Shown here one piece after another: positions 26,975-28,887 of a stretch of 64,000 nt of DNA. The position numbers and the translations under genes are program-made. The first letter of the stretch is position 1, and every line of letters begins with the position of its first letter. The notes under the pieces were generated by a model. That model was not told the DNA's origin and did no database searches. It was given only the letters and a program-made list of their open reading frames with translations. The stretch spans positions 1-64,000 of the forward strand of contig KB906742.1 in NCBI GenBank assembly GCA_000381585.1. Direction: 5' to 3'. The stretch is from Acidobacteriaceae bacterium KBS 83 (GTDB taxonomy: Bacteria > Acidobacteriota > Terriglobia > Terriglobales > Acidobacteriaceae).

Positions 26975-27244
26975 TTTCAGGTGATGCGGCGGACCCTGGG
27001 AACCGACATGCAGCAGCACGGGACGCTGAAGGACACGCAGGGCATGTTGCGGCACGCGAGCATCAAGACGACCGGGGATGTTTATGTTCAGACGATCGAA
27101 CAGAGCGTTCTTGCCGCCGTGAACTCGCGCACGTCAGCGGTGCTCGGCGACTGGAAGATGTCGGACAAAAGTCTGGGCCTGAAGGGGAGAAATCTGAAAG
27201 GTCTGAATGCAATTCGGCGAAGTCGATTTCTGAGGTGGCTGTAA
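26975..27244 (+). pseudogene. C-terminal fragment of a tyrosine recombinase/integrase
   Basis: The frame encodes VMRRTLGTDMQQHGTLKDTQ, GMLRHASIKTTGDVYVQTIE and SVLAAVNSRTSAVLGDW, matching the last 90 residues of tyrosine recombinases with the LRHAS box and the catalytic Tyr in DVYVQ. A stop directly precedes the fragment and the catalytic N-terminal part is absent. It ends 13 bp before the 3' half of a tRNA-Asn, the usual place for an integrase gene relative to its attachment site. Confidence 0.8.
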
Positions 27245-27257
27245 GTTGTTGAAAGAT

Positions 27258-27306
27258 TGGCTCCTCAGATAGGACTCGAACCTACAACCCTTCGGTTAAC
27301 AGCCAA
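27258..27306 (-). other. 3' half of tRNA-Asn(GTT): probable attachment site
   Basis: On the minus strand 49 bases read as the 3' part of a tRNA: the anticodon loop CTGTTAA (anticodon GTT, Asn), the T-arm GTAGGTTCGAGTCCTAT, the acceptor 3' strand CTGAGGA, the discriminator G and CCA. The matching 5' acceptor strand and D-arm are not found next to it, so it is not a functional tRNA. Integrases often use such 3' tRNA segments as attachment cores. Confidence 0.8.
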
Positions 27307-27334
27307 CGAATTTACCGCTCCTCCTGCTGCTATC

Positions 27335-27396
27335 GATTGCTATAAGCCATTATATGACATGCACTTAAGCCCTGGTCGCACTCTGCGGATTGCTAT
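27335..27396 (+). repeat. Direct repeats GATTGCTAT beside the tRNA fragment
   Basis: GATTGCTAT occurs at 27335-27343 and 27388-27396, 53 bp apart, between the tRNA fragment and the PRTRC F-like relic. Short direct repeats near an attachment core are typical integrase arm sites. Two 9-base copies could also be chance. Confidence 0.3.
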
Positions 27397-27443
27397 CGGT
27401 TTGGCTTCCTTACGATCGATTTTGAAGGAGCACCAACAACGCT

Positions 27444-28561
27444 TCACGCAGCTCGAAGCGATGGTTCTCCCCGATGGCTATCTGAACCTGCATTTTTCGT
27501 CTCCCACAACTCCTCAACCAGTTCAAAGAGCTCGGTGTTGAATGCAACGAAACGCTCGATCACACGCACGGCGTGCTTCACTTCGTCGGCCTTCTTTGGA
27601 GAAAAGACGACACAGACTGTCGGCTCCGACGAGCCTTCCAACATGTGCTGGCTTTCCTCGTCGAAGCAGGCGGTGATAGCGTCTCTTTCCTTGAAGGCAA
27701 TCAGCAACGATGGGAGCGGAGGACTATCGTAGTAGCGGTCTTCGAGAGGCTCCCGCCACTGTTCAAGACGCAGACGGGAGAGTCGTTGCATCTTTCGTAA
27801 ACGATCAATCCAGGACCGGTAGGGCCCTTTGCCGTGGGCGCGCAGCAGGCGGCGATCTTCAATTCTCCACTTCTCTTTAAGTGTTTTCTGAATGCACGCC
27901 GGGAGTGCTCTCTCCACCTCTGGAAATTCATATTGATTCCGATTCTCCTCATCGTCCTCATTCGCAGACTCGATCAACATCTCCTCATACATGAGTGCAT
28001 CGCTGTGGTCGTAGATCCGCATGACGCGATAGAGGGAATGGATCAGGGTCCAATAGAAGCAGCCCCAAGCCCCTCCGCTTGATCCTCGAGGGCGTCGAGT
28101 GCTGGCCCGATCTTCAGATACCCCGCGCCGCTGCATTCGATCGTCACGGCTAACTGTCCATTGCCAAGTGTCGCACCGTAGCCATCCCGTTCAAGGACAT
28201 CGCTCACCTGGAGGTAATATTCGACGTTGCGCTGCGGCAGATCGCCGCGCTGTGCTCCGATCCCGCTCATGATGCTGTGTTGCGCGAAGGCGACTGCATT
28301 GCCGCCGGATCGTTGCCACGTTTCGGGCGAACCCAAACCCGCCTCGACCAGAGCGTAAAGCAGCTCCGCATTGACTTCGTGGTTGTATTCGGTTGGCACG
28401 GCGCCGAGGGTGGGGAGAGCCTGACCGAAAGCAGGCGCGAGGGTTGCTATTCGAGGGGCGGAAGGAGTTCCGACGGAGTGGAGAGCGGCACACTGTCTGT
28501 GCCCGCGAACCGGTCCACCGCCTGCCGGACGGCGCCGGCGAAACGTATCGCTTCTTTGCAT
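27444..28561 (-). pseudogene. PRTRC protein F-like gene, frameshifted
   Basis: Two frames join near 28058. The first encodes LPTLGAVPTEYNHEVNAELL to GYLKIGPALDALEDQAEGLG. The second continues FYWTLIHSLYRVMRIYDHSD, YEEMLIESANEDDEENRN and a charged C-terminus. One missing T would restore GCT GCT TTC TAT across the junction. I assign it to PRTRC F by position next to protein C and by general resemblance, so the family name is less sure than the join. The start is uncertain: the ATG at 28561 lies inside the preceding small gene and the first later candidate is a GTG near 28412. The PRTRC cassette (ParB-related, ThiF-related) is found on plasmids and integrative elements and its role is unknown. 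Confidence 0.6.
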
Positions 28562-28665
28562 TGGAGATGCCTCACGAGCAATTTGTTCGCTTCCGGCGGC
28601 GGTGCGGTCGCCTTCATCGCGAATAGTGCCACCAACTCCTCTCGTGTCATCTCAGGCCGAGGCAT
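28447..28665 (-). CDS. Small hypothetical protein between PRTRC C and F
   Basis: 72 residues starting MPRPEMTREELVALFAMK, with the ATG three bases after the stop of PRTRC protein C. It contains LLVRHLQCKEAIRFAGAVRQ and ends PSELLPPLE. It overlaps the presumed start region of the F-like gene in another frame. It is either a genuine small cassette gene or the N-terminus of the F-like protein cut off by a frameshift near 28460. Confidence 0.55.
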   Translation of the reverse strand: MPRPEMTREELVALFAMKATAPPPEANKLLVRHLQCKEAIRFAGAVRQAVDRFAGTDSVPLSTPSELLPPLE

Positions 28666-28668
28666 GGC

Positions 28669-28887
28669 TTAGCCCTTCGACCCGATCGCTCTGGAGAAGG
28701 AGTAACGCAGGCTCGTTCCCGTGTCCTCCGGCCCAGTCATCGTCGCAGTCGCAATTTCGGGGTAAGAAGGCGTAAGCAGGTCGCGAACCTCTTCGACTCC
28801 CATCCTTGGATCAGGATCGGGAATCCGCGAACCGTCGAACATGAATTCGCGAGGCAAGCTGGTGGTCTTCAGAGTGGTGGTAGCCAT
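28669..28887 (-). CDS. PRTRC system protein C
   Basis: 72 residues with the family pattern REFMFDGSRIPDPDPRM, EEVRDLLTPSYPEIATA, TGPEDTG and the end FSRAIGSKG (usual ending GTKG). The length is normal. GGAG lies eight bases before the ATG. It is the only intact, clearly assignable PRTRC gene here; proteins A, B, D and E and the ThiF and ParB members are absent. It would be the first gene of the minus-strand remnant operon that continues into the small gene and the F-like relic. Function unknown. Confidence 0.82.
   Translation of the reverse strand: MATTTLKTTSLPREFMFDGSRIPDPDPRMGVEEVRDLLTPSYPEIATATMTGPEDTGTSLRYSFSRAIGSKG

Follow-up and report, generated by a model that had tools for sequence, protein, structure and literature searches.

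The segment 26974-27428 of the window (the whole 64,000-nucleotide stretch analyzed, i.e., bases 1-64000 of contig C10, 169,102 bases) is very probably the relic of a chimeric attachment site, at which two unrelated integrative elements successively occupied the 3' end of a tRNA-Asn gene (site-specific accretion) and which was then truncated on both sides. The first-pass annotation had placed an integrase tail 13 bp before a 49-base tRNA-Asn 3' fragment, and had read the fragment as an attachment core flanked on either side by element sequence. Both statements were borne out, the integrase tail lying to the left of the core and a block here called X to its right. Among the three explanations offered at that stage, i.e., a tandem insertion, a circular-form junction and two elements using the same site, the last fits best in light of the arm-repeat comparison and of the family to which X belongs. 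The pieces of the junction are as follows:

26974..27244, forward strand, 3' tail of a tyrosine integrase gene of ICE type, with the final ~88 codons left and the 5' four fifths lost
27209..27221, forward strand, arm-type repeat GCAATTCGGCGAA within the integrase 3' end, a 13-nt match to the far ends of the G020 element and of locus L066
27258..27306, reverse strand, 49-nt 3' fragment of tRNA-Asn, the attachment core, with 2 mismatches to the intact gene on contig C5 and aligned with the cores of related elements
27307..27428, no strand assigned, X, far-end arm of a second element family, with the conserved block CTGCTGCTATCGnTTGCTATAAGCC ... TGCTATC ... TTTTGAAGGAGC
27335..27343, forward strand, first copy of GATTGCTAT, inside the conserved block of X
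27388..27396, forward strand, second copy of GATTGCTAT, at the second conserved TGCTATC of X

The integrase tail corresponds to residues 328/330-412 of the 424-aa integrase of the G020 element (89-92% amino acid identity; 89% over residues 328-412, E = 2.9e-43, against a relative's full 424-aa protein), and in place of a complete tyrosine integrase gene only residues 328-412 of 424 are left at the attachment site. Its stop codon, TAA at 27242-27244, precedes the core by 13 bp, the spacing proper to this integrase family in G020 and others: in G020 the full integrase ends at the same distance from its own intact tRNA-Asn and is adjoined by VirB-like genes (recognized by eye from translations, with no family search), and the DNA of the window is about 86% identical to it over tail and core. 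The sister species G001 has, at its intact tRNA-Asn, an integrase end with 96% identity, which is cut by the contig end. The match of the tail to Pfam Phage_integrase was weak (E = 0.0057, below the Pfam cut-off), while its full-length relatives are integrases by Pfam. In the DNA alignment the homology starts abruptly at CTTTCAGG, position 26974, nine bases past the stop of a large regulator gene; to the left of this point lie that regulator gene and a catabolic-type cluster, with no conjugation genes beside the tail. The tail was the only match in its own genome at E ≤ 1e-20, and at this threshold the remainder of the gene was not found. The site is most likely inactive, since the integrase has lost the N-terminal portion and the larger part of the catalytic domain.

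Whether one element or two flank the core was approached through arm repeats. The G020 element carries TTCGGCGAA twice on its integrase side and twice at its far end. A 13-mer on the integrase side of the window recurs at the far ends of G020 and L066, which exceeds all 100 shuffles; against the window's own right side nothing longer than 9 nt matches, a length at chance level. As to calibration, G020 is the only certain matched pair with the motif on both sides; for the matched pair of the first G018 element the test gave no arm in common above chance level. This comparison of sequences speaks for two different elements flanking the core, and the junction is probably not the circular form of one element, because the arm repeat recurs at the far end of related elements and not on the right side of the window. 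The arm test and the X family thus both put the core between the ends of two different elements. X was also considered as the far end of the integrase's own element family, and this was rejected as the GGAGTA and TTCGGCGAA features are absent. A circular-form (attP) junction of a single element with integrase and PRTRC genes, captured elsewhere by some other recombination, would explain the attP order of integrase, core and element sequence, as well as the PRTRC remains on the right; it is nonetheless unlikely, and the earlier suggestion of such a junction is disfavored. The arm repeat of the integrase family is absent on the right, X belongs to a different end family, and the PRTRC-B gene found there does not constitute a natural element end, since it is cut. 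Moreover, among 60 relatives the close integrase (G017, G018, G020, G022) occurred without PRTRC-C, and PRTRC-C (G025, G029, G034, G041) without the integrase.

The second element of the accretion reading is represented by X. When bases 27307-27412 were compared with 398 genomes of the family, nine, the own genome included, matched at E ≤ 0.01; all eight others were read, and the alignment omitted L149 and L150 (matches of 19-22 nt only) and kept L147 and L145. In six of these eight genomes the conserved block runs from the core to TTTTGAAGGAGC and is then followed by the repeat GGGCACAAAAATGGGCACA, which is absent from the window. The block comes after a tRNA-Asn 3' end in three of the six (G687, G634, G410) and after a tRNA-Lys-like 3' end (anticodon CTT, by eye) in two (G691, G685), while in the sixth, G615, no tRNA 3' end was visible by eye before it. 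The Asn and Lys-like cores are alike over about 35 nt, 31 of them identical by eye, and one integrase could therefore use both. In G410 a second, different tRNA-like 3' fragment lies just past the X block (L148:1341-1365), and in G691 a frame of regular repeat units, by eye a CRISPR array, stands beside Cas1-like genes (L153:5602-6300 and 6560-9996), near the X junction at the tRNA-Lys-like core.

The two GATTGCTAT repeats, proposed earlier as integrase arm sites, fall at two conserved positions of X, but the nine letters are only partly conserved, and the motif differs from the repeat of the adjacent integrase family. Exactly two copies occur in the 64 kb, against 0.27 expected, a number reached in 3 of 100 shuffles. 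As for the genes beyond X, those of G410 and G691 are metal-resistance-like and those of G687 and G685 ordinary (translations, by eye). In G687, G410, G615 and G685 the X elements appear to be likewise reduced or undefined, because the DNA past X carries ordinary or resistance-type genes. A guessed pattern for the integrase-side arm of X's own integrase matched none of the 398 genomes and no viral contig, and neither the X pattern nor the integrase-core pattern was found in viral contigs; the TGGGCAC arm, sought in the own genome, occurs at one place with 2 mismatches. It is conceivable, if rather doubtful, that X is the mark of a family of islands in Acidobacteriaceae that has so far escaped description, of which at least two adjoin genes of metal-resistance type and whose conserved arm module is joined to Asn and Lys-like tRNA 3' ends, and that a single integrase using both cores could stack these islands on unrelated residents at either tRNA.

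The relatives of X also bear on whether the junction is real. An assembly chimera at the repeated tRNA core might be suspected in a 21-contig draft with four core-like copies in the genome, yet it is very improbable: the core copy has two substitutions of its own with respect to the intact tRNA, the 49-nt repeat is short, and the core-X join exists elsewhere, because the G687 junction aligns through core and X (79% over 195 bp).

To the right of X the window continues with the remains of a PRTRC cluster:

27413..27505, reverse strand, start of the PRTRC-B gene, cut after about 30 codons (tblastn, residues 7-38 of G034 PRTRC-B, 69%)
27447..28561, reverse strand, F-position gene, flanked by PRTRC-C and PRTRC-B (52-56% to G034 in two tblastn pieces)
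28669..28887, reverse strand, PRTRC system protein C, ubiquitin-like (TIGR03738, E = 4.4e-21, over the NCBIfam cut-off; Pfam Prok_Ub)
30010..30613, reverse strand, TSCPD-domain gene of the PRTRC cluster (70% to G034; Pfam TSCPD)
40556..46363, reverse strand, colinear remains of the broken PRTRC cluster (tblastn order as in G034:C47)
40556-41041 and 44279-44512, reverse strand, helicase pieces of these remains (tblastn against G034)
44807-45457, reverse strand, a further piece (tblastn against G034)
45417-46363, reverse strand, a methyltransferase-like piece (tblastn against G034)

PRTRC genes had been placed 138 bp beyond the tRNA fragment; they do lie on the right, but the nearest piece, the start of PRTRC-B, is closer than that. 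The break between X and PRTRC-B falls at about 27412 to 27437, with DNA alignments ending at 27437-27441, and the G034 protein used for comparison is a PRTRC-B by TIGR03737, over the cut-off. A frameshift near 28058-28073 divides the F-position gene, which has no match to a named family; its protein matches 51 of the 398 family genomes, the own included, PRTRC relatives being common. The intact relatives of the broken genes carry DUF6094 and helicase domains. Relatives have the order C, F-position gene, B and ThiF, with all four present in 21 of 24 loci (20 picked by assembly and similarity, plus L043 and L056-L058); in place of adjacent C, B and ThiF genes the window has C present and B cut, and the ThiF of G034 found no match in the own genome in a search that had no positive control. 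The decayed cluster between 27413 and 46363 is broken up by a gene for an Asp/Glu racemase, by a frame of 1768 codons and by an SDR-type gene next to a TetR-like one. Elsewhere on the contig, an integrase-like frame lies close to the contig end, outside the window (C10:166650-167960, in L010), adjoined by a gene related to one in the G034 PRTRC cluster (C10:164737-164973), and a repeat family with copies 86% identical occupies 3530-4183 and about 54000-55870, with another at C5:23250-25108.

The fetched stretches of the 24 PRTRC loci contained no tRNA-Asn core (one 12-nt chance match) and no integrase of this kind. A PRTRC element ending naturally at the core was accordingly rejected (0/24 loci with core or this integrase), and the initial idea that the PRTRC genes form the end of the neighboring element found no confirmation, PRTRC-B being cut where X begins. 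The PRTRC genes were either joined to X by a later break or belonged to X's element and were brought next to it by an internal deletion. Integration of the ICE at a secondary, non-tRNA site inside a PRTRC element would suit a core lying away from the tRNA locus and an interrupted PRTRC-B nearby, but about 120 bp of X, which are not PRTRC-B sequence, separate the core from the PRTRC-B break, and in other genomes X adjoins tRNA fragments; this reading, highly improbable, is largely refuted and was rejected.

That the core is a chance tRNA-like sequence or a degraded tRNA pseudogene without any element, as its Rfam tRNA score of 21.5 bits (gathering score 29) might suggest, is refuted with near certainty by its 47 of 49 nt matching the intact tRNA and by the exact 13-bp integrase spacing of intact elements. 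ARAGORN called no tRNA in the window, and no second copy of the 49-nt fragment was found within its 64 kb at up to 3 mismatches. The sole intact tRNA-Asn(gtt) detected in the own genome (G000, a 6.25-Mb draft) is at G000:C5:589932-590006; as this is another contig than C10, the junction is not at the tRNA locus, and no intact target gene stands at the outer end of the array. A longer DNA query returned four core-like places, i.e., the window, the intact gene, C5:550792 and C6:457873, the last being a 90% match over 61 bp on a third contig (G000:C6:457873-457933, L038). A search for the intact gene with a repeat nearby, recommended by the first-pass annotation, did locate the gene on C5 with a core repeat 39 kb off, the window copy being elsewhere; a standing tandem insertion at the tRNA, also considered at that stage, is not there now. 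The C5:550792 core and the intact tRNA-Asn bound what is probably another island, separate from the window copy. In this 39-kb stretch (G000:C5:550792-590006; L036, L037, L003), probably a resident island, a 375-aa integrase adjoins the far core and regulator-type HTH genes lie close to the tRNA. Among 60 relatives the flanks of the window gave gene-level matches only, with no synteny placing its neighbors at the tRNA locus. With the intact tRNA-Asn on another contig, a move of the junction has therefore to be assumed.

Loci with the same pattern of integrase end and core are present in 4 of 399 genomes of the class (own included), and a collection of genomes yielded 11 such loci, all MAGs titled Acidobacteria, Acidobacteriaceae or Acidobacteriales. 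Out of 17 distinct sites that were classified, 12 have an intact tRNA-Asn and five have none. An integrase of this kind (tblastn E ≤ 1e-3) accompanies the intact tRNA-Asn in 7 of the 17, one of them cut by the contig start; the other five intact-tRNA sites were below the tblastn threshold, and two of these have 256 bases or less on that side. Of the five that have no intact tRNA (the window, G018:77k, L066, G020:701k, L063), the last lies on a contig that stops in the core. At G020:701k a 49-aa integrase tail, 84% identical to the G362 integrase, is followed by the core and by the far end of a 51-kb element. G018 holds an intact tRNA-Asn with integrase at 32 kb and, at 77 kb, a second integrase and core without intact tRNA, while L066 joins one integrase family on the left to the arm of another family on the right. 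In G685 a 24-aa remnant of the G691 integrase (67%) precedes a Lys-like core and X.

Site-specific accretion at tRNA-Asn would have begun when an ICE-like element integrated; comparison shows that the gene for its tyrosine integrase stops 13 bp short of the core. A second element with end sequence X would then have inserted between core and tRNA, giving the order integrase tail, core, X; we infer this order from the anatomy of the junction and from the same arrangement in relatives taken together. Later events would then have deleted four fifths of the integrase together with all that lay to its left, brought X up against the broken PRTRC cluster on the right, and displaced the junction from the intact tRNA-Asn; the breaks themselves are visible.

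A literature search combining Acidobacteria, integrative and conjugative and tRNA-Asn returned nothing. Within the Acidobacteriaceae, the ICE-like elements at tRNA-Asn in G018, G020 and G022 share with the window the integrase family, the 13-bp spacing, the core and the arm repeat; unlike them, the window retains the integrase tail only. Tandem genomic islands at ssrA in Dehalococcoides, with direct repeats of the ssrA 3' end between islands, offer a parallel, as outlined in parts of PMC3146451, in that many islands are stacked at one RNA gene with 3'-end repeats between them. Those islands involve serine recombinases, a tmRNA and repeats within 100 kb of ssrA, whereas here tyrosine integrases, tRNA-Asn and a displaced junction are found. 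The same type of event is known from the accretion of ICEs, IMEs and CIMEs, where, according to a review of mobilizable elements (PMC5704250), a chimeric att site separates a decayed ICE from a second element whose integrase is unrelated. Both cases have two elements at one tRNA 3' end, one of them decayed, with different integrases and a shared core; here, in contrast, only a few hundred bp are left of either element, the junction is off the intact tRNA and the host phylum is different. Site-specific accretion is thus already known, and this site is a new, displaced and worn example, an ordinary scar. Its anatomy suggests tRNA-Asn as a hotspot for stacking in Acidobacteriaceae. It also suggests that, where the elements survive only as small remnants, a comparison of arm repeats across the core can still distinguish a chimeric accretion site from the circular junction of one element.
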